From assembly GCF_020180945.1 (NCBI RefSeq), contig NZ_JAIPUL010000001.1, positions 1,054,001-1,118,000 on the forward strand: a stretch of 64,000 nucleotides of DNA, given 5' to 3'. The notes below the pieces were generated by a model. That model was not told the origin of the DNA, did no database searches, and saw nothing but the letters and a program-made list of their open reading frames with translations. Source of the DNA: Lacticaseibacillus kribbianus. GTDB lineage: Bacteria > Bacillota > Bacilli > Lactobacillales > Lactobacillaceae. How positions within the stretch are numbered: the first letter of the stretch is position 1; each line of letters starts with the position of its first letter. This document shows positions 5,378-52,226 of this stretch, in pieces. The translations under genes and the position numbers were made by a program.

Positions 5378-7561
5378 TTACTTAGTATTGGCGAACGTGA
5401 CGGTGACGGGATCGTCGCCCAGCAGCGCCCCGCTGGCCAGGCTTTGGTGACTCGCGTACCCCGTGCCGCTCAGTTTGAATTTTTTACCAGTCAATTGTGC
5501 TAATTTTAACACATCACTCTTGGACCAGCCAGACACGTCGGGCATGGTCATCGCGCCGTTGGTCAAAAGCAGCACGCGGGCGCCGGTCAAGGCCGCGGTC
5601 TTGGCCTGCGGCAGCTGCGCGACCACGCGGTTGCCGGTGCCGACCACCGCCGCGGCGAGCTTGGCCTCCGTCACCGCCGTCTGCGCGGTGGCGACGGCGT
5701 CGTTGGTCACCGCGGGCACGGTCGCCTGGGTGCTGGCACCGCTGGCCGCGGTGCTGGCGTCAAGCGCAAGCGCCCGCTTCAACAGCGGTTGGAAGACCTG
5801 GTTGATCTTGGTGGCGATCGGCACCTCGACGTTCTTTTGCGACTGCTGCAGGGTCACGTAGACGATGTACTTCGGGTTGCTGGCCGGGGCAATCGCCATC
5901 ACGCTGTGCAGCGCGTTGTCGCCCTCGGTCACGTAGCCCTTGCCGTCCGCGCGCGGAATCTGCGCGGTCCCGGTCTTCATCGCCATATCGACGCCCTTGA
6001 TCGCGTACGGCGCCCCGGTGCCGTAGTCCTCGGTGACAACCTTGCGCATCGCGTCGAGCACCTGCGTTGCGGTGTTCGCACTGATCGGCTGGCCGACCAC
6101 GCGGCGCTTGTAGGTGGTCACCTTGCCGGTCTTGGACACCGTCTTCTTGATCAGCCGGGGCTGGATCATCGTGCCGCCGTTGGCAATCGCCGTCGTCGCC
6201 TGCAGCATCTGCATCACATTGACCGAGATGCCCTGGCCAAAGGAGATGTTCAGCCGCTGCAGCGGGTTTTTAAGCGAGTACGTGCCGGCGTTCTCGTTGG
6301 GCAGCGCGACGCCGGTGGCCTCCGCGAAGTGGAAGGCCTTGAGGTACTTGGCCTCGTTGGCCTCGCCGAGCTCTTGCTCGATGCGCACCATCCCGGTGTT
6401 GCTTGAGCGAGTGAAGGCCTGGCTTAGCGGAATGCTGCCCCAGCCCTCGCCGTCGTTCCAGTCGGCCACCGTGCCGCCGGCCACCTTGATGCGGCCGGAC
6501 TGGTAGTACTCGTCCGGGCGGTAGGTGCCGGCCTCGATGGCGCTGGCCAGGGTGACGATTTTCATGACCGAGCCGGGCTCGTAGACGTCCTCGACCAGCG
6601 CGTTGCGCCAGGAGGTCAGCCCCTCGCGCGTGCTCGGGTCGAAGGTCGGCCGGGAGCTTGCGGCCAGAATCTCGCCGGTCTTGGCGTTCATCAGCACCGC
6701 GTTGAGCACCTTCGGCCGGTACGCGGTGGCGACCTTGGTCATCAGGGTCTCGAGGTAGGACTGCAGGCTGGCGTCCAAAGTCGTGGTGACCGAACCGCCG
6801 TTGACCGCCTGCTTGACCTTGGTCTTGGCCTGCGGCAGCTTGAAGCCGTACACATCGTACTGCGAGCTGGTGTAGCCGTCGGTGCCGGACAACAGCGTGT
6901 TGAACTGCTGCTCAAGCCCCATCACCCCAACCAGCGGGTTCTTGGTGCTGTTGTCCTTGGGCGGCGTGGCCAGGCCGATGGTGTAGCTGGCGAAGTCGCC
7001 GTTGGGGTACAGGCGCGACGGGCTGTCGGTGAAGCCGATGCCGGTCAGCTTGGCGGCCTCGATCTGGTTTTTGATCGCCAGCGACAGGCCGCGGCCTGCC
7101 TTGCCGAACTCGACCTGGTACGGATTGCCCTTGGGGTTGAGGTAGGCCAGAATCTGCTTTGCGGTCAGCGGCAGGTACTTGGCCAGCACCTGCGCGGTCT
7201 TGGCCTTATCCGTGACGTAGAGCTTGGTCTTGCCGTCCACGTTGGCCTTGCCGTCCGTCGTCTTTTTGCTCAAAACGGCGTAGAGGGTGTATGTATTGGC
7301 GTCCTCCGCAATCACGCTGCCGTGACGGTCGTAGATGGCACCGCGCTTGGCGGGCAGCACGGCATCGCGGTGGTACTGGTTGTTGCGGTAGGTCTTCAGG
7401 TCCTTGGAGTCGATGCTGCCGCCCAAGGCGACATACGCAAAACGACAAACGAATGCAAGACCGATGGCCGCAGTCAGACCAATCAGCAGAATGCCGAAAA
7501 GCTTGCGGTTGAACTCGGGATGTCTCGCATTCGTTTGTCGTCTGGAAAAAAGTTTTTTCAT
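5378..7561 (-). CDS. PBP2B, septal class B transpeptidase
   Basis: Monofunctional D,D-transpeptidase that crosslinks septal peptidoglycan (FtsI/PBP2B type). 727 residues: N-terminal membrane anchor (about 21-45), dimerisation domain, then the penicillin-binding domain with SVMK (331-334, active serine), SSN (386-388) and KTG (529-531). A single C-terminal PASTA domain (about 670-727) is typical of Firmicute PBP2B. An Ala/Thr-rich linker (about 600-650) precedes it. The start overlaps the ftsL stop by 4 bp. Confidence 0.95.
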   Translation of the reverse strand: MKKLFSRRQTNARHPEFNRKLFGILLIGLTAAIGLAFVCRFAYVALGGSIDSKDLKTYRNNQYHRDAVLPAKRGAIYDRHGSVIAEDANTYTLYAVLSKKTTDGKANVDGKTKLYVTDKAKTAQVLAKYLPLTAKQILAYLNPKGNPYQVEFGKAGRGLSLAIKNQIEAAKLTGIGFTDSPSRLYPNGDFASYTIGLATPPKDNSTKNPLVGVMGLEQQFNTLLSGTDGYTSSQYDVYGFKLPQAKTKVKQAVNGGSVTTTLDASLQSYLETLMTKVATAYRPKVLNAVLMNAKTGEILAASSRPTFDPSTREGLTSWRNALVEDVYEPGSVMKIVTLASAIEAGTYRPDEYYQSGRIKVAGGTVADWNDGEGWGSIPLSQAFTRSSNTGMVRIEQELGEANEAKYLKAFHFAEATGVALPNENAGTYSLKNPLQRLNISFGQGISVNVMQMLQATTAIANGGTMIQPRLIKKTVSKTGKVTTYKRRVVGQPISANTATQVLDAMRKVVTEDYGTGAPYAIKGVDMAMKTGTAQIPRADGKGYVTEGDNALHSVMAIAPASNPKYIVYVTLQQSQKNVEVPIATKINQVFQPLLKRALALDASTAASGASTQATVPAVTNDAVATAQTAVTEAKLAAAVVGTGNRVVAQLPQAKTAALTGARVLLLTNGAMTMPDVSGWSKSDVLKLAQLTGKKFKLSGTGYASHQSLASGALLGDDPVTVTFANTK

Positions 7562-10907: not shown

Positions 10908-10965
10908 AAAGACCTCCTAGGTGATTTCCCTACCACAAAGAAGGTCGACAAGTCGACGTTCACAA

Positions 10966-11040
10966 TCCCTACGCTCGTATTAACGAACAGGTTCGAAGGG
11001 TCTGGGTCTCCCCACTCTCAGCCAATGGCTCCCCTTTGTG
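10966..11040 (-). promoter_or_regulatory. TPP riboswitch (THI element) controlling thiT
   Basis: On the minus strand the conserved blocks appear in order: GGCTGAGAG (J/P2), ACCCTTCGAACCTG (P3-side) and AATACGAGCGTAGGGA (P4/P5). A self-complementary GTCGAC-TT-GTCGAC hairpin followed by CTTCTTT lies between the aptamer and the thiT ribosome binding site and could be the off-state terminator. Binding of thiamine pyrophosphate would switch thiT off. Confidence 0.93.
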
Positions 11041-11169
11041 ACGGTTCCTCACAGATTTAATTGACATCCTTATATTAACAGGTCACCCCGGAATTGCAAA
11101 TCTCCGGTCTGTCTGAAAACGTATCCGAATTAGTCATTCGGGGCTAGACACATCCCCCGGCAGCGTCGC

Positions 11170-21026: not shown

Positions 21027-21114
21027 GGAGAGTTGGCAGAGTGGTAATGCAACGGACTCGAAATCCGTCGAACCGGCTAATACCGGCGCACGAGTTCGAA
21101 TCTCGTACTCTCCT
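21027..21114 (+). tRNA. tRNA-Ser(CGA)
   Basis: Complete type II tRNA: acceptor GGAGAGT/ACTCTCC, anticodon loop CTCGAAA with CGA at 21059-21061 (reads UCG), long variable arm with CCGG/CCGG, T-arm CGAG-TTCGAAT-CTCG. CCA is not encoded. The gene is the integration site of the element to its right: the half from the anticodon to the 3' end is repeated at 28657-28714. Confidence 0.95.
21056..21076 (+). repeat. attL core of the IME
   Basis: 21 bp spanning the anticodon loop and 3' anticodon strand of tRNA-Ser, identical to 28657-28677. Tyrosine recombinases often use tRNA anticodon arms as crossover regions. Short CAGTACCA/AGTACCAG repeats at 21207-21230 and 28554-28563 may be arm-type sites for the integrase. 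Confidence 0.8.
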
Positions 21115-21139
21115 GAATAAACGTTGATTTAACAGCGTT

Positions 21140-21168
21140 CCGCAGCCTTTCTGGGTTGCGGTTTTTTT
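21140..21168 (+). terminator. Terminator after tRNA-Ser
   Basis: CCGCAGCC / GGGTTGCGG hairpin followed by seven T, 26 bp downstream of the tRNA. It belongs to the element side of the attachment site. Confidence 0.8.
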
Positions 21169-21295
21169 GTTGCTTTCAAACACTTGTTTGGACCAAAATC
21201 GACCTTCCAGTACCAGTACAGTACCAGTTGAAAAAATCGGGCCGCCGGTTTGGGCGGTAAACGTGTCCGGAATTTCATGTGATTAGACCTTTCTT

Positions 21296-22414
21296 TTAGA
21301 AGAATTTGTCGAGGGCATCGGCAGTTTCGCGTTGCTTGTTTGGGAAAAGATGCCCGTAAGTGTCAATCGTTGTGACGATGCTGGCATGCCCCAGTCGTTC
21401 CTTGATGATCGTGTACTCTGTTTCTTGATCAATCAGCAAGGCGACGTGCGAGTGCCGGAAATCGTGAATACGAATCTGCTTCATCGTGGGATCACGTTTG
21501 CAGATACGTTTATAGCGCATGCGGATCGTGTGCTTGTTGCGGCGTATCAGCGTTGCTTGGAACATCGGCGTATCTTCGCTCCAGTCGAGGGCTAAGTCGT
21601 GCTTAAAGAGTTCCTGTTGCTGTTCACGCCACTGCAGGAGCAAGGCGATCATGCCTTGGTTGAGGCTGATGCGGCGATTACTAGCCTTGGACTTTGGCGG
21701 GGTGATGATATCCACGCCGCCACGTCGGAACACGGACTTGCTGACAGTCAGTTCCTTGCGTTTGAAGTCAAGATCCGACCAGTCCAGCGCGCAAAGTTCG
21801 CCGACCCGCAGGCCAGAAAAGAACAGCAACGAGAATAACACGTACCAGTCGAATTCTTCTGGCAGGTGAATCAGCTTCGTAAACGCGTGAAATTCATCTG
21901 GCGTGTAGAATTCCATTTTCTTGCGTTCGATTTTGAGCTTCTTCACGCCAATACAAGGATTTTCGACAATCACTTTCTCCTCAACTGCAACGTCGAGGAT
22001 CAGCTTCAACTCAATCAAGGTCTTGTTGTTGGTGTTGTTGCTCAAATCGCGTTCTTCGGTGAGCCATTCTTGAAAGTCGCGGATATGCTCGCTAGTCAGG
22101 CGCTTAATATCGGCATTGACGAAGAATGTCTGGATATAGCGCTTGTACACGGCGCGTTGAGACTGCAAATAGGACGGCTTGATGTGAATCTTCACGCGGT
22201 TCACGTACCGCTCGAACAATTCGTCGAAGGTGACTGTTTCCTGATTGAACAGTCGGTCGACGCTAGTACGCATCATCTCCTTTTCAACTTCGCGGGCAGA
22301 CGCCATTGAACGAATGCCTTGTTTCTTTTTGCGGCGACGCTTGCCGGTGACGGGATCAGTGCCAAAGGAGACACTGACAACGTAGGTGCCATTTGCTGCT
22401 TGAGTAATGCTCAT
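21296..22414 (-). CDS. int: IME tyrosine integrase
   Basis: Site-specific recombinase that integrates and excises the element, 372 residues. N-terminal AP2-like arm-binding domain (MSITQAANGTYVVSVSFGTDP), SAM-like core-binding domain, then the catalytic domain with R in FFSGLRVGELCALDW, HDFRHSH (His/Arg), LGHAS and the nucleophile Tyr in TIDTYGHLF. ATG 22414 is chosen because GGAGG lies 8 nt upstream and the conserved N-terminus begins there. Gene ends 180 bp from the tRNA, the usual attL arrangement. Confidence 0.93.
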   Translation of the reverse strand: MSITQAANGTYVVSVSFGTDPVTGKRRRKKKQGIRSMASAREVEKEMMRTSVDRLFNQETVTFDELFERYVNRVKIHIKPSYLQSQRAVYKRYIQTFFVNADIKRLTSEHIRDFQEWLTEERDLSNNTNNKTLIELKLILDVAVEEKVIVENPCIGVKKLKIERKKMEFYTPDEFHAFTKLIHLPEEFDWYVLFSLLFFSGLRVGELCALDWSDLDFKRKELTVSKSVFRRGGVDIITPPKSKASNRRISLNQGMIALLLQWREQQQELFKHDLALDWSEDTPMFQATLIRRNKHTIRMRYKRICKRDPTMKQIRIHDFRHSHVALLIDQETEYTIIKERLGHASIVTTIDTYGHLFPNKQRETADALDKFF

Positions 22415-22512
22415 TTCATACCTCCAAATAATTGAAGGCACGCTTGCTTTGGTCGTTGACCATGATATACTTGGCTTGTCTAGGGCAAAGTATCGGGTGC
22501 GTGCAATCACGT

Positions 22513-23739
22513 TCATTCGTTGCTTTGTTTTTTTTCGTTGTCATGTTGCGCTTGTTCGAGCACCTCCTTGAGTAACGTCTTTTGCTGCGGGGAGAATTCG
22601 GCTGCATTGATCATGTCCGCAATCATATCGGTGCCATTGAGTGAATCGACCTGTTGGACCATTTTCAGACTGGGTGCAACCTGTTTTTTCAGCCAGTTTA
22701 GCACGCTGTCCAACGTGATCGGTTCGGGCTGCATGGCGAGCTTCAAGTGATTGCGGTTGTCACCGATGAAAGTTTGCCAATCCGGGTCCAGTGGACAATC
22801 AGCCAAGTTCTTCGAGCCTTGTGGCGTCACGATCCGCAAGTAGTGGTTGATGATACCAAAGACGACCGCCTCGGCGTCTTGGCAGGCTAGTAGTTCCTTC
22901 ATGGCTTTTTGTGCCCGTTGGTCGCGAAGTCGGACTTCAAACCGGTTGAGAATTGGAGAATCTTCTGGGTAGTCGATTTTGTTTTTGAAATATTGCTCGA
23001 TGTCCTTTTGATAGCCAATCATTTGCACCAAACTTTGAGGTGAACCGAATTGAACGGTTTTCCCAACGCAGCCTTTCTTGATCGTTTCAATTGCGCCTTT
23101 GCTCTTAAACAGGCTCACTAGTTCGTCTTTCTCGACTTTTTGAATCAAGTGGGGAATGTCGATAATCCCGACGGTGTCATTGATGGCGAAGTCAACGCGT
23201 TTGTAGATGCCAGTTAAGTCATCACAGGCCTGAAAGAAGTCGAACCAAGTTAACCCGTCTCGGACAAGCACCGCCTCCAATTGACGGCAACCAGACCCGT
23301 GCATTTCAACTATTGTCCCAAGTTTGGTATTTGGGCCACCAACACGGGTACTCATAATCGAAATATCGCCGCGTTGAATCGTGTAGTCGTACCCGTAAAA
23401 TGCTTTTTCCGTTAAGGAGAAGAAGTCTCTGTTCATTGGAAATAGCTTCTTGAACACGTACTCGGCGTCTTGAGTATTGAACCGCACTCGCACGTAATCG
23501 ACTAAGATAAACATCGAATCACGGTTTGTCAGGCCAAGGAGCGCGTGTCCCAAGCGTCGTTGCATTTCTTCCGTTAGTGCACCGTTTCCATTTAACAGTC
23601 GATTGACATAGGAGCGGGTCATCCCTAATTGTGCCGCAAGTTGCGCTTGACTGATACCAGCACCAGTCATTTGTCGGCGAAATTCCACCAACCAGCCGTG
23701 CCCAGTATGATCACGGCCATTCATCATTGTTTTATCCAT
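22513..23739 (-). CDS. mobT: MobT-type relaxase (HTH + Rep_trans)
   Basis: Nicks oriT and starts rolling-circle transfer/replication of the element. 408 residues: an XRE-like HTH at residues 27-60 (ISQAQLAAQLGMTRSYVNRLLNG) joined to a replication-initiation-factor domain (VDYVRVRFNTQD ... YGYDYTIQRGDISIM ... DLTGIYKRVDFAIND). This two-domain plan is that of MobT relaxases of Tn916/ICEBs1/ICESt3 relatives. Start ATG follows GAGGTGAGCA. It is upstream of int in the same orientation with a 98-bp gap. Confidence 0.88.
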   Translation of the reverse strand: MDKTMMNGRDHTGHGWLVEFRRQMTGAGISQAQLAAQLGMTRSYVNRLLNGNGALTEEMQRRLGHALLGLTNRDSMFILVDYVRVRFNTQDAEYVFKKLFPMNRDFFSLTEKAFYGYDYTIQRGDISIMSTRVGGPNTKLGTIVEMHGSGCRQLEAVLVRDGLTWFDFFQACDDLTGIYKRVDFAINDTVGIIDIPHLIQKVEKDELVSLFKSKGAIETIKKGCVGKTVQFGSPQSLVQMIGYQKDIEQYFKNKIDYPEDSPILNRFEVRLRDQRAQKAMKELLACQDAEAVVFGIINHYLRIVTPQGSKNLADCPLDPDWQTFIGDNRNHLKLAMQPEPITLDSVLNWLKKQVAPSLKMVQQVDSLNGTDMIADMINAAEFSPQQKTLLKEVLEQAQHDNEKKQSNE

Positions 23740-26109: not shown

Positions 26110-27307
26110 AAAACACCAAGACAAAAGTCCTGTTATCATTGAAGCTACCATACAAACAATGAAAGAAGGATGTCTTGATGCAAGACCAGCTTATCACGCC
26201 TCACGTTAAAGGTCACCACCTAACCCCATCTGAGCGTGGAGAAATCGCAGTTCTCCACGCGCAAGAAAAGTCCAATCGAAAGATTGCCGACCGCCTCGGT
26301 ATCAATCGCCAAACCATCGCCAACGAAATTGCTCGCGGGCAGACTGACCAGGTCGAGAAGGTCAACGGCAAGCTGCACTACTATAGTGTTTACAGTCCTG
26401 AAACTGCCCAGATACGTTATCAGGAAAACCGCCAGCGCTGCCGTCGTCCGCTTAAGCTCTCGAAGGTCCAGGACTTCATTACCTACTTTACAAGCCACTT
26501 TCAAGAGGATAGCTGGTCACCTGACGCGGCCGTTGGCCGCGCTAGGGCAGAGGGGCTATATTTGCCCGACGAAATGGTTTGTACTGCGACGCTTTACAAC
26601 TATATCGACGCTCAGCTACTGGAGGTGCGAAATATTGATCTGCTTGAGAAGCCTAGTAGACGTGTGAAGCATAAGGCCAACCACAAGTTCCAACGCATGC
26701 TGACGGGTCGCAGTATTGACGACAGGCCAAAGCGTGTGGACTCTCGTAGAGAGTTCGGCAATTTCGAGCTAGACACCATAGTTGGTAAGCGCAATGGCCA
26801 GGAGAGTGTACTGATGACACTGATTGAGCGCAAAACCCGCTTCCAGTTCGTGCGCCTGATTGATGGTCGTGATGCGGACTCGGTTAACTATGCCATGCGC
26901 GCTATCGTCAAGGACCACGGGGACATCATCAAGACCGTCACGGCGGACAACGGTTCAGAGTTCGCAGACTTGTCATTCGTACTCGACGGAGTCGCTGACG
27001 TATACTACGCCCATCCTTATCGCTCCAGCGAGCGCGGCACCAACGAAGCCCATAACCGGATGCTGCGACGGGACTTCCCCAAGGGCCTGTCTCTAGATAC
27101 CGTAGGCCCTCAGGAGGTGGCCGAGGCCGGACGTAAGATCAACGACCTCCCACGTCACATCCTGAAGTACCAGACCCCCACAGAACGATTCGTGGCGGAA
27201 TCCGCTCAGGTCCGACGCCGGGCGGCTAAAGCGTCGACGCCGACTAACTCACCAACTTCATAGATAACAGGCTTTCATACGCCGGATCGGGCCAGGTGGC
27301 TAACTTG
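26073..27307 (+). mobile_element. IS30-family insertion sequence (copy 1)
   Basis: Left end CAAGTTAGCCACC (26073-26085) is repeated inverted at 27295-27307, giving a 1.2-kb unit holding one transposase. Outer ends may extend by up to about 15 bp on each side, where similarity is weak; no target duplication is evident. A near-perfect palindrome at 26085-26106 lies before the transposase. Confidence 0.75.
26178..27263 (+). CDS. IS30-family transposase (copy 1)
   Basis: DDE transposase, 361 residues. N-terminal HTH (HLTPSERGEIAVLHAQEKSN), then catalytic residues in NFELDTIVGKRNGQ, VTADNGSEFADL and the IS30 signature ERGTNEAHNRMLRRDFPKG. It differs clearly from the copy at 45.1 kb, so the two are distinct elements. 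ATG 26178 follows AAGGA. Confidence 0.93.
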   Translation: MQDQLITPHVKGHHLTPSERGEIAVLHAQEKSNRKIADRLGINRQTIANEIARGQTDQVEKVNGKLHYYSVYSPETAQIRYQENRQRCRRPLKLSKVQDFITYFTSHFQEDSWSPDAAVGRARAEGLYLPDEMVCTATLYNYIDAQLLEVRNIDLLEKPSRRVKHKANHKFQRMLTGRSIDDRPKRVDSRREFGNFELDTIVGKRNGQESVLMTLIERKTRFQFVRLIDGRDADSVNYAMRAIVKDHGDIIKTVTADNGSEFADLSFVLDGVADVYYAHPYRSSERGTNEAHNRMLRRDFPKGLSLDTVGPQEVAEAGRKINDLPRHILKYQTPTERFVAESAQVRRRAAKASTPTNSPTS

Positions 27308-44958: not shown

Positions 44959-46136
44959 CCCCAGTTTACAATTCAAGTGCAACACCCTGACGACTAGACC
45001 AAAAAGGCCATGAAGACCTATTCTTGTTAGTACTAGCTAAACAAGAAAGCAGGAATCTTCATGACCCACTCTCAGACTAACACCCACAAGCATTACCAAC
45101 AACTCAGTTTTAGCGACCGTGCTACAATTCAGGCCCTTCGGGCTGCTGGTGACACCGCGACCGTGATTGCACAGAAGCTTCATCGCAGTAAAGCGACAAT
45201 CTCACGAGAAATCACGCGTGGATCTGTAACTCAGCTCGACTCGAAGCGTCACTCGCATCAAGTCTATCTTGCGGAAACTGCCCAAGCCATGCACGACCGT
45301 AAACGCGATAGAACCGGTCACTACGCCTTTCTTAAGACCGGCCGTGCGTTCTTCAAGGCTCTCGCCAGGGAGCTTACTCGTAAGCCGCGCGTACACAGCG
45401 TTGATAGCTTCGTACACTTCTATCGCGACCAGGGCAAGGCTTGCCCTTCAACGACAACTGTGTATCGCTACATCGACGCCGGGCTGCTTGAGCTAGACAA
45501 CATGACACTTCCCAAGAAGCTCCGACGCCGCATCAAAGGCTATAAGAACGCCCACAAGCGCAAGAATAAGAAGACATACGGCGACTCAATCGAGTTGCGT
45601 CCTGCGGCCGTGAATGACCGCACAGGCGTGGGACATTGGGAAGGCGACTTGGTCAAAGGTATTCGCTTAGCTGATGAGCCAGCATTAATGACGCTCACAG
45701 AACGGTACAGCCGGACTGAGATCATCGTCAAGATTCCTGACTATCATGCGGGCACCTGCCTTAAAGCCTTGCAAGACACGATTGACGACTACGGGGCCAA
45801 GGAATTTGAGAGTATCACTTTTGACAATGGTTCCGAGTTTGCCAAGTTATCAGAGATTGTTGGAACCCAGATTTACTTCGCACATCCGTACTCGCCTTGG
45901 GAGCGTGGCACAAACGAGAACGCCAATGGACTGCTTAGGGAATTCTTCCCGAAAGGGAAGTCTCTCAGAGCCGTTACCCTGGTTGAAATTCAAGCAGTCC
46001 AATCCGCACTGAACCATCGTCCCAGACGTATTCTGAACTATCTTCGCCCATGCGATTACTACCGATGCATGGCGTAACAGCCTAGACCACTATCAAGAAT
46101 TCGTTATCATCGTTGCACTTGACTTGAAAATTGAGG
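44959..46136 (+). mobile_element. IS30-family insertion sequence (copy 2), 1178 bp
   Basis: Terminal inverted repeats of 25 bp with 21 matches (left starts CCCCAGTTTACAATT, right end complement starts CCTCAATTTTCAAGT; both end in TCAAGTGCAAC). Flanked by 14-bp direct repeats. Inserted exactly at the terL-portal junction. Confidence 0.92.
45061..46077 (+). CDS. IS30-family transposase (copy 2)
   Basis: 338 residues: HTH (QLSFSDRATIQALRAAGDTA, IAQKLHRSKATISREI), catalytic residues in VGHWEGDLVKG, ITFDNGSEFAKL and ERGTNENANGLLREFFPKG. Complete, likely active. Oriented against the phage late genes. Confidence 0.95.
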   Translation: MTHSQTNTHKHYQQLSFSDRATIQALRAAGDTATVIAQKLHRSKATISREITRGSVTQLDSKRHSHQVYLAETAQAMHDRKRDRTGHYAFLKTGRAFFKALARELTRKPRVHSVDSFVHFYRDQGKACPSTTTVYRYIDAGLLELDNMTLPKKLRRRIKGYKNAHKRKNKKTYGDSIELRPAAVNDRTGVGHWEGDLVKGIRLADEPALMTLTERYSRTEIIVKIPDYHAGTCLKALQDTIDDYGAKEFESITFDNGSEFAKLSEIVGTQIYFAHPYSPWERGTNENANGLLREFFPKGKSLRAVTLVEIQAVQSALNHRPRRILNYLRPCDYYRCMA

Positions 46137-50707: not shown

Positions 50708-51238
50708 TTATTGGTTATTTTGAACGGCCTGATCAGCTTTAGCGTGTGTCGCCTGAACATCACTCAATGCTTGGTTCATATCGGCATTGTTTTTGTTTTG
50801 CGCATCGGAAAGCTTTTGCTGTGCGTCTGCTAGCTGTTGTTGAAGATCGGAGACTTTCTTGTTGGCTGCATCAACCTCAGCTTGCTTAGCAGCAACTTTC
50901 TGGTTGCCTTCATCAATTTTCTGATTGATTTCGTTAATTTTTTCTTGAATCTCAGTCTGCTTGTCGGCATTAGCCTGAGTGAGTTGGTCCTGTAGGGCCT
51001 TAATCTGATCTTGGTAACCGCTAACGGAAGACTTGGCATTACCAAGGTCAGACGTCAACTGTGTAATCTGACTGTTCTTACTTTGGACACGACTGGCAAG
51101 TGTGTCAATGTCGGTGTTAATAGCTTCAACATCTACGTGCCCTGCCCAATAATCATCCGCAAAAGTTTTTACGCCAAATCCAGTTCCCAGTAGCGCAATC
51201 GCAACGGCGGAAATTACTAAGCTCTTTTTTAAATTCAT
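50708..51238 (-). CDS. Secreted or membrane-anchored coiled-coil protein
   Basis: 176 residues. N-terminal signal/anchor MNLKKSLVISAVAIALLGTG, then a continuous heptad-rich coiled coil (residues 45-165; SKNSQITQLTSDLGNAK, KVSDLQQQLADAQQKL). Cleavage after FGVKTFA is possible. ATG follows AGGAGG. It stands alone between the late RNA cluster and csbD; an extracellular role such as altered surface or superinfection exclusion is speculation. Confidence 0.75.
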   Translation of the reverse strand: MNLKKSLVISAVAIALLGTGFGVKTFADDYWAGHVDVEAINTDIDTLASRVQSKNSQITQLTSDLGNAKSSVSGYQDQIKALQDQLTQANADKQTEIQEKINEINQKIDEGNQKVAAKQAEVDAANKKVSDLQQQLADAQQKLSDAQNKNNADMNQALSDVQATHAKADQAVQNNQ

Positions 51239-51323
51239 GACGGGAGTTCCTCCTATGATTTGATTAGTAAACAGCAACGTGCAAAATATTAACACGTATG
51301 ACTAGGTTATGCAATGCTTTGAT

Positions 51324-51395
51324 GCAATCGGCTGGATTTGAACCAGCGACATACGTCGTTTAGGCGATGGCTCTACCATACTGAGCTACGATTGC
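51324..51395 (-). ncRNA. tRNA-like RNA with abnormal anticodon arm (element C)
   Basis: Acceptor GCAATCG/CGATTGC (7 bp), D-arm GCTC-AGTATGGTA-GAGC and T-arm GCTGG-TTCAAAT-CCAGC are perfect, but the anticodon segment (22 nt) offers at best CATCG-CCTAAA-CGACG with one mismatch and a 6-nt loop lacking the U33-N34-36-A37 pattern. Either a decayed phage tRNA or a tRNA mimic. CCA is not encoded. Confidence 0.7.
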
Positions 51396-51396
51396 T

Positions 51397-51461
51397 ATAC
51401 TGTCCGTCATCACGTCCTCAACGGTATGAGTGGCACGAAGGCCATATGCGTGATGCAGTAT
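51397..51461 (-). ncRNA. Structured RNA, three-way junction (element B)
   Basis: ATACTG/CAGTAT and ATCACG/CGTGAT form a stacked stem with a 6-nt bulge on the 3' side; the tip carries TGGC-CTTCGT-GCCA and CTCA-TACCGT-TGAG hairpins. Ends one base before the tRNA-like element C. Confidence 0.6.
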
Positions 51462-51494
51462 TTTTGAGTCGCTCGCTCGCCCAGTTTAGTATGG

Positions 51495-51565
51495 GGTCAT
51501 CGCAAGCTCTTCCCCGTGCCGGAATCGGACCGGCAGCCGTGCGTGGCTTCCATATCGGGGTGACC
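51495..51565 (-). ncRNA. Structured RNA, three-way junction with T-arm-like hairpin (element A)
   Basis: GGTCA/TGACC and CCCCG/CGGGG stack with a 12-nt bulge on the 3' side; tip hairpins are AGCC-ACGCAC-GGCT and GCCGG-TCCGATT-CCGGC. Same architecture as element B. The last hairpin followed by the 3' strand resembles a tRNA T-arm/acceptor, with no D-arm. Confidence 0.6.
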
Positions 51566-51604
51566 TGTCCATGGCTTTATCATCACCATAGACCGCCATA
51601 AACA

Positions 51605-51638
51605 AAGAAAGAAGGTGTGTCTTAGGTTCTCACCTTTG
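51605..51638 (-). terminator. Hairpin with U-rich tail upstream of the RNA cluster
   Basis: AAGGTG / CACCTT stem followed by CTTTCTTTGTTT on the minus strand. It lies after the late-type promoter and before element A, so it could act as terminator for arpU, or as a conditional attenuator for the RNA transcript. Confidence 0.5.
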
Positions 51639-51651
51639 GCACAATACAATA

Positions 51652-51680
51652 ATAACATGCAATTTCATGGTAGATGTCCA
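51652..51680 (-). promoter_or_regulatory. Late-type promoter downstream of arpU
   Basis: TGGACA (51680-51675), 17-bp spacer, TGTTAT (51657-51652). The -35 lies in the last, degenerate member of the 11-bp repeat array. Confidence 0.55.
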
Positions 51681-51727
51681 GTCTTTGTCTACTCTTTGTT
51701 TACCTTTTGTCCACTGTTTGTCTACTT
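51673..51727. repeat. 11-bp tandem repeat array (activator sites?)
   Basis: Plus strand: TTTGTCTACTC, TTTGTTTACCT, TTTGTCCACTG, TTTGTCTACTT at exact 11-bp period (51684-51727) plus a degenerate fifth (51673-51683). Overlaps the arpU 3' end. One helical turn per unit and position before the -35 suggest a bound activator, probably ArpU. Confidence 0.7.
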
Positions 51728-52155
51728 TTATTAACCAGCAATCCATGACTACCAACAGGCCATATACTGGCAAAAGCGTACAATGCCTCTTTGAGCGCGA
51801 TATAGTATCCGGCTTTACTATATCCAGAATCCGCAATCAAGAGTTCTACGGCAATGGGTCGCTTAATGTAATAGTCTCTCAGTATGTTTCGCCGAGCATC
51901 ATCTTCGATGCACTCGATTGTCTTTTCGCATACTTCTACGTACGTTTCATCATCCAAACGGTTGGTGATCTTTATCTCCATAACGTTGCCGATTGATGAT
52001 GATCTTGGCATACCGTCAAGTGATGGCGACTGGATAGAAGCCTTGACCCGTGACCTTTGTTTTCGTCTACGATAGTCTTCTAGCACATTGTCAGCTTCTG
52101 CTACAGACGCTTCATAATCCCACGGGCTCACAGCACTAGCTGTTGTCTTTCTCAC
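51700..52155 (-). CDS. ArpU-family late transcription regulator
   Basis: 151 residues from GTG 52155 (AAAGGAG upstream). Features: VSPWDYEASVAEADNVLEDYRRRKQRS at the N-terminus and a C-terminal sigma-like region (LRDYYIKRPIAVELLIADSGYSKAGYYIALKEALYAFA). ArpU/RinA-type proteins switch on the terminase-tail operon. Located at the end of the early operon, just before the late control region. Confidence 0.88.
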   Translation of the reverse strand: MRKTTASAVSPWDYEASVAEADNVLEDYRRRKQRSRVKASIQSPSLDGMPRSSSIGNVMEIKITNRLDDETYVEVCEKTIECIEDDARRNILRDYYIKRPIAVELLIADSGYSKAGYYIALKEALYAFASIWPVGSHGLLVNKSRQTVDKR

Positions 52156-52226
52156 TTGCGCACCGCTCCTTTCCCAATTAGCCCAGAACCACACGCCCAC
52201 CAAGGCTATGAACAGCATGACGGCAA

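Follow-up and report, generated by a model that had tools for sequence, protein, structure and literature searches.

What kind of RNA unit lies between the late activator gene and the next open reading frame of a Lacticaseibacillus prophage? In the 64,000-nt stretch of DNA analysed here, to which we refer as the window, an initial annotation had placed three successive tRNA-sized structured RNAs, A, B and C, on the minus strand of the late control region and had considered a reduced relative of the large phage RNAs GOLLD or ROOL, a decaying tRNA array or a new class of RNA as explanations. We tentatively favour a late, largely noncoding RNA unit in which the tRNA-like elements serve as cutting marks for RNase P and RNase Z, freeing the modules J and B and sometimes ROOL, and we give this reading not quite an even chance. 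Among the titles and abstract openings from which we judged the literature, no prior description of this array was found.

The array lies behind a late activator gene

The window covers a segment of a Lacticaseibacillus chromosome that includes a prophage. Genes for tail, head and packaging proteins of this prophage are encoded on the minus strand, those for portal, large terminase, tape measure and tail fibre being recognised. The array is positioned on the same strand between the gene of a late transcription activator and a downstream ORF, confirming the assignment to a late control region by the activator gene and by a conserved leader, behind both of which the array lies. The equivalently placed gene of phage J-1 is annotated as ArpU family. 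The features are, in order along the minus strand:

51700..52218, minus: late transcription activator gene (ArpU-like; phrog_248, E 1.5e-23), upstream of the array
51671..51725, minus: iterons, five in number and 11 bp each (GTAGACAAACA type), preceding the leader, from the sequence
51649..51654, minus: probable -10 element TATTAT, just 5' of the conserved leader
51617..51647, minus: leader GTATTGTGCCAAAGGTGAGA..., conserved in relatives
51567..51593, minus: leader hairpin with loop GATGATAAA, from its fold
51511..51560, minus: element A, D-armless and tRNA-like, from covariation
51471..51508, minus: J module, a hairpin with outer helix GCTTGC/GCGAGC and inner helix CCC/GGG
51397..51461, minus: element B, a three-way junction with a pseudoknot between loop CCGT and bulge ACGG, from covariation (model R2, 71.6 bits)
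51323..51395, minus: element C, tRNA-like with acceptor, D and T arms and without a usable anticodon, from ARAGORN, RF00005 and a homologue
50708..51238, minus: downstream ORF (ATG 51238 with AGGAGG; phrog_5105, unknown function)
50695-50676, minus: terminator-like site behind the downstream ORF, the first such site on the array strand

The iterons (51725-51671) overlap the stop codon and 3' end of the activator gene. In related phages we read, by eye and within 130 nt upstream of the leader, other iteron sequences spaced again by 11 bp, as if the activator and its iteron site changed together; the types seen there are GGACA, TGCAACA, GAGAC, GCCCC and GCGAACTA. TATTAT probably acts as the -10 element, which in many relatives is TATGAT, and a consensus scan listed no sigma-70 site at 51649-51654. 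The leader probably represents the 5' end of the array RNA. The helix of the leader hairpin is kept by different bases in relatives, as read by eye. A snoRNA match of 12.5 bits in an Rfam search at E 10 is located in this hairpin, at 51562-51588 and thus just upstream of A.

The initial annotation had stated that no ORF explains the tract 51239-51699. This stands as far as the downstream boundary is concerned, the next gene starting with ATG 51238 behind AGGAGG, while two ORFs do overlap the tract: one, called mechanically, starts at GTG 51295, and the other, of 87 codons, is on the opposite strand, both being without support. A terminator scan found no intrinsic terminator between the array and the downstream ORF in the window, and the ORF is probably carried on the array transcript in this phage.

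Element C resembles a tRNA that cannot decode

C matches the tRNA model RF00005 with 48.3 bits at a gathering cut-off of 29, the fourth lowest score of the 49 tRNA matches in the host genome, and ARAGORN reports it as tRNA-??? with a 2-nt anticodon, in agreement with the description given initially. Its middle part, CATCGCCTAAACGACGTATGTC, cannot fold as a normal anticodon arm, and C (cluster row L183) lacks the combination of 5-bp anticodon stem, 7-nt loop, U33 and triplet found in 37 of 38 host tRNA sequences used as control. Compared to shuffled sequences it folds with z -2.83. YrlA is a bacterial RNA with a tRNA-like part, and a 19-nt part of the D arm of C matches this Y RNA-like family (RF02553) weakly with 14 bits (E 7.1), however far below its gathering score of 69 and with none of the other YrlA features seen.

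We identified a homologue of C in another Lacticaseibacillus species (locus L007), in which the acceptor is GCAATCG/CGATTGC compared to GCAACCG/CGGTTGC in the window and the T stem GCTGG/CCAGC compared to GCCGG/CCGGC, each differing by one compensated pair, and in which the middle part shares CGCCTAAACGACG with C. A sequencing error in C, which the initial annotation had left room for, is very unlikely because this independent homologue combines compensated stems with the same non-canonical loop; L007 and L183 are the loci on which this rejection rests. Matches of viral contigs to the loop pattern of C (L229-L231) turned out to be unrelated DNA.

Elements A and B are supported by covariation and differ in design

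The 71-nt element A of the initial annotation contains a 50-nt tRNA-like element, which we retain, fused to the first half of the separate module J. The outer helix GGTCA/TGACC proposed for it is not kept in relatives, the L. parakribbianus copy (G010), at 99% identity, having GGTAA already. With the revised boundaries A consists, from 5' to 3', of an acceptor, a linker of 7 nt (ATATGGA, with GG inside) that replaces the D arm, a hairpin of 4 bp, a T arm whose loop reads TCCGATT and an unpaired A. In the window its acceptor comprises 5 pairs followed by an A.A mismatch, compared to 6 pairs in each of the nine further sequences aligned. On its own A does not fold better than shuffled sequences (z -0.99). 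The alignment A3, comprising ten chosen A-type sequences and leaving out the commoner GTGGCA-type relatives, which MAFFT misaligned and of which at least two have weakened or hybrid acceptors (L075, L107), is paired to 98.7%, with 5 of 15 pairs doubly changed compared to 3.0 in shuffles (12/500 as high) and 18 doubly changed cells compared to 6.6 (0/500 as high), further pair types being fewer than in shuffles.

For B, the covariation was read by reference from an alignment (A4) of eight sequences, five of which are closely related, so that the independent events are few: 95.9% of the cells are paired, 11 of 25 pairs are doubly changed compared to a shuffled mean of 3.9 (0/500 as high), and the covariation score is 0.360 compared to 0.186 (0/500 as high). 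Slid versions of the alignment reach at most 3 doubly changed pairs; the further pair types are less striking (19 compared to 16.2, 23/500 as high). RNAalifold recovers the nested part of B unprompted, and the pseudoknot is paired in all 30 cells with letters, including one compensated change, CTGT with ACAG, in L174. B folds with z -2.18 relative to shuffles. It thereby shows, in eight sequences, the conserved secondary structure backed by covariation that is expected of a new RNA family. Model R2 has matches in 4 of the 301 Lactobacillaceae genomes, each from the window's genus, and at 20 places in the 67 loci searched, among which are the sequences used to build the model and some duplicates; a free-form script search for relatives of B returned mostly unrelated matches.

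On this comparative evidence A and B are real RNAs, because their helices covary in relatives. Three tRNA-sized structured elements on the minus strand are thus borne out by the folding of B and C and the covariation of A and B, the covariation in homologues having been suggested initially as a check. The common design attributed to A and B does not reflect descent, A being a D-armless tRNA-like element and B a three-way junction with a pseudoknot. The search with the tRNA model, suggested likewise, divides the elements, C matching RF00005 and A and B showing no match even at E 10. No Rfam family was matched by A, J or B at the thresholds used, for A and B not even at E 10, and of the explanations offered initially a new class comes nearest for B and J, which appear to be two new structured RNAs.

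Arrays of related phages keep the acceptor and T arm

Leader matches in IMG/VR comprise at least 120 plus 16 stretches, the array counts given here being samples. Deduplication left 137 arrays, of which five from unrelated bacteria were dropped by eye (L182, L187, L188, L190, L191); the 132 arrays kept include the window, and some are clipped by contig ends. The leader pattern matches 19 contigs, 12 of Lacticaseibacillus and 7 unrelated. The array of phage J-1 is matched by 45 phage records, all named Lactobacillus or Lacticaseibacillus, in which the matched stretch is annotated as nothing, as unknown or as hypothetical protein; the phages A2, J-1, PL-1, phiAT3 and Lc-Nu are among the array matches, as are three records of a plasmid collection, all from Lacticaseibacillus.

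J is the most conserved part of the array. It is present in 122 of the 132 arrays, one of the ten misses being an array of just 219 nt. Among 301 Lactobacillaceae genomes 7 contain J, each of them from Lacticaseibacillus. A sense ORF of at least 50 codons and of variable length crosses J in 64 of the 122 arrays and is absent from the other 58, which argues against a protein-coding array; J is too invariant for a codon test.

Scanning the 132 arrays for T arms yielded 224 places, which fall into 56 or 57 clusters less than 90% identical to one another. Acceptor helices with 6 or more pairs occur in 51 of 56 clusters, compared to a mean of 20.9 and a maximum of 29 if strands are swapped between clusters (200 swaps); chance acceptor matches are common, and the excess over the swaps is clear. 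With a limit of 5 pairs, 54 of 57 clusters have an acceptor helix and three have none. In 52 of the 57, 6 or 7 acceptor pairs adjoin a 5-bp T stem, i.e. the acceptor is stacked on the T arm as in mascRNA, window A having 5 pairs and a mismatch; 27 different acceptor pairs occur among these 52. In contrast, a canonical anticodon arm is seen in 2 of the 57 clusters, one being a true tRNA-Ile(UAU) and the other probably a chance stem, compared to 37 of 38 host tRNA sequences. The distance from acceptor start to T stem ranges from 21 to 190 nt across clusters. Applied to the 132 arrays at default settings, ARAGORN gives 27 matches, of which 15 show a two-letter anticodon, and an intact tRNA-Ile(UAU) lies amid anticodon-less elements in four arrays (L165, L174, L178, L185).

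CCA is encoded in none of 118 distinct tRNA-like elements and in none of 22 host tRNAs read, so it is no distinguishing mark; array elements and host tRNAs alike would need RNase Z-type 3' processing because CCA is not encoded. A copying of the elements from host tRNA acceptors was rejected, as none of 38 host sequences (from 30 of the 49 host tRNA matches) has one of the common acceptors GCAACCG, ATCGCTG and GTGAGAG.

The modules are closely packed. In the window A and J are separated by 2 nt, J and B by 9 nt with no tRNA-like element in between, and B and C by a single nucleotide. Of 121 arrays with J and sufficient sequence, 89 have a tRNA-like element whose end falls within -1 to 2 nt of J or of the hairpin preceding it; in 9 the element is over 12 nt off, and for 23 the scan detected none before J. 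After J, the next tRNA-like element starts at 1-3 nt in 50 of 121 arrays and at more than 12 nt in 27, none being detected in 44; the almost constant J is followed by 25 different 30-mers in these 50 arrays. In four of eight B-bearing arrays a script places the next element 1-2 nt after B, and in the other four an acceptor-like strand was seen by eye, the element failing the script rules. For 14 of the 51 distinct first-element sequences the placement by the script gives an acceptor of fewer than 6 pairs, four of these lying in arrays seemingly without an element. An intrinsic terminator follows within 700 nt of J in 90 of 110 arrays compared to 1 of 110 after shuffling in two-base blocks (one shuffle per array). 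The whole tract of the window folds better than shuffles (z -2.39).

Parts of the unit occur outside phage late regions

At L007 (L197 in G027, about 6828-6990, minus strand) A-, B-, C- and Ser-like elements are found in a row, and neither leader nor J was found within the 18 kb read. Next to them are genes for a rolling-circle replication initiator and a transglycosylase/endolysin-like protein, suggesting that L007 is probably an integrative or rolling-circle element rather than a phage. Parts of the Lacticaseibacillus phage RNA unit are thus, judged by these neighbours, present also in another kind of mobile element, and the set of A-, B- and C-like elements is not tied to phage late genes alone, because the neighbours of L007 point to a non-phage element.

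According to PMC12286853, ROOL and GOLLD are phage RNAs without a known function that frequently lie close to tRNA islands, GOLLD linkers sometimes contain tRNAs, and Rfam includes a GOLLD model. A term search of the L. salivarius ROOL paper (PMC5643018) finds tRNA in its reference list only. Neither the ROOL model (RF03087) nor the GOLLD model matched the window or 34 related loci at the gathering threshold, so the idea of a reduced relative of GOLLD or ROOL is not supported by the covariance search of the window. A link to ROOL nevertheless holds at another place. Phage Lbab1 (MT758689; Herelleviridae; host L. casei BL23) contains J at 96.8% identity with tRNA genes nearby, and cmscan identifies a complete ROOL, unannotated in the record, directly upstream of the same modules (L234:2147-2719, 201.5 bits); as read by eye, ROOL is followed after 19 nt by a long tRNA-like element, J and further modules common to temperate phages. 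The long tRNA-like element next to this ROOL is annotated as tRNA-Ser. In L251, from another genus, a minimal element of acceptor and T arm with a 17-nt body (1440-1487) ends about 13 nt before ROOL; four tRNAs accepted by ARAGORN are located after this ROOL. At the ROOL loci L248-L250 no element of acceptor and T arm was found on the ROOL strand within 1.5 kb, i.e. two of five ROOL loci looked at have such elements. ROOL occurs in 4 of 151 Lactobacillaceae genomes, none of these four being from the window's genus in that draw. The unit of the window resembles ROOL and GOLLD in being phage-borne and located beside tRNA genes, the ROOL of Lbab1 directly preceding an array of J and tRNA-like elements, whereas it comprises only about 330 nt without ROOL or GOLLD, and its B and J match no Rfam family.

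A proposed model for the release of J and B

We propose a model according to which the activator would bind to the iterons and transcription would start at the leader. Each tRNA-like element would then be cut by host RNase P at its 5' end and by RNase Z at its 3' end, and these cuts would free J and B, the ends of which often lie 1-3 nt from the putative cut sites. The freed RNAs would be the payload; at L007 the supposed payload would be B alone, because leader and J are absent there. We propose RNase P and RNase Z because both read the stack of acceptor and T arm with the elbow, which is kept while the decoding part is lost. Recognition of the tRNA elbow by both enzymes is described, with mascRNA as a precedent (PMC11693755, PMC4919913). 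According to PMC11693755, mascRNA and menRNA are tRNA-like substrates of RNase P and RNase Z setting the ends of long noncoding RNAs, mascRNA is not aminoacylated, and cleavage at its 5' side generates a long noncoding RNA end. The proposed release resembles the RNase P cut at mascRNA as described there, which makes the 3' end of MALAT1, and the elements share with the mascRNA of MALAT1 and the menRNA of NEAT1 an acceptor with T arm, a reduced D region and a non-decoding hairpin on the anticodon side. In contrast, mascRNA is a mammalian, single 3'-end element, whereas here several elements, with putative cleavage, would be present per RNA in bacterial phages.

The reading as cutting marks is favoured by the excess of acceptors over strand swaps, the near absence of anticodon arms, the abutment of J and B, the terminators, the covariation of A and B and the ROOL of Lbab1. 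It is weakened by the 9-nt gap between J and B without a tRNA-like element, by the only 5 acceptor pairs of A and the 14 first-element sequences with fewer than 6, by the many arrays without an element close to J, by the ORF in 64 of 122 arrays, by the ten arrays without detected J and by the lack of leader and J at L007. Going further, the anticodon-less mimics might be solely cutting marks of a tRNA punctuation in phages, releasing J, B and the cage-forming ROOL of Lbab1, with swappable payloads entering other mobile elements, and might form a bacterial counterpart of mascRNA, which we consider possible rather than probable. If the tRNA-like elements are cutting marks, the proximity of ROOL and GOLLD to tRNA islands would be simply explained by a release through tRNA-processing enzymes, and the presence of the small unit in well-known Lacticaseibacillus phages such as those named above makes this idea testable.

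Alternative explanations

A serious rival is a single uninterrupted ornate RNA resembling GOLLD or ROOL, the tRNA-like elements being structural domains that stay uncut. The discrete unit with leader and terminator, the folding of the whole tract, the ROOL adjoining the same modules in Lbab1 and the tRNAs reported within some GOLLD linkers (PMC12286853) are all compatible with it, whereas the mosaic order and content of the modules, with the 25 different 30-mers after J, argues against it, and no conserved helix between modules was noticed on inspection; we regard it as rather unlikely. Another serious rival is decoys, i.e. anticodon-less mimics occupying host enzymes that bind or cut tRNA, such as synthetases, EF-Tu, the CCA enzyme or tRNA nucleases of defence systems. 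That the tRNA face gripped by such proteins is kept and the remainder varied agrees with decoys, and the hypervariable middle parts fit an arms race. Decoys leave, however, the abutment of J and B and the position of J as the most conserved part unexplained, and enzymes requiring the anticodon arm would not be deceived by such mimics, making this explanation unlikely.

T4 with its stable RNAs is an example of a phage tRNA gene cluster, which the arrays resemble in their row of tRNA-like genes and in the normal tRNA-Ile(UAU) of 4 of 132 arrays, the difference being that nearly all elements here are non-decoding and interleaved with structured RNAs other than tRNAs. The decay of such an array, in which tRNA genes have lost decoding and drift while J and B are leftovers of recombination, would account for the broken elements (three of 57 clusters without acceptor, hybrid or damaged first elements), the variable stretch of 21 to 190 nt between acceptor start and T stem and the surviving tRNA-Ile(UAU). 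Decay should, however, strike acceptor, T arm and anticodon arm equally, whereas among the clusters, which were found by their T arm, 54 of 57 retain the acceptor and 2 the anticodon arm; the compensatory changes seen for A and for B, and the compensated stems with the same odd loop in C of the window and L007, likewise speak against the simple decaying tRNA array proposed initially, which we consider quite improbable. A leader of the late operon acting in cis, e.g. by processive antitermination through J with the tRNA-like elements as passengers, could draw on the position of the array at the head of the late genes, the strong conservation of J and the lack of a terminator-like site before the next ORF in the window. 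It is very improbable given the intrinsic terminator after the array in most relatives (90/110), J in the tRNA region of phage Lbab1 and the A-, B- and C-like elements of L007 beside rolling-circle replication and transglycosylase genes.

Further features of the window

Two transposase genes of one family (phrog_4646) are located on the plus strand at 45061-46077 and 26175-27263, the former lying, within the prophage, between the genes for large terminase and portal and pointing the other way. Within 21027-23739 a tRNA-Ser(CGA) adjoins the genes of an integrase (21296-22516) and of a replication-initiation-like protein (22513-23739), this region perhaps being an integrated element of its own. 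A TPP riboswitch is present at 10949-11045 on the minus strand.
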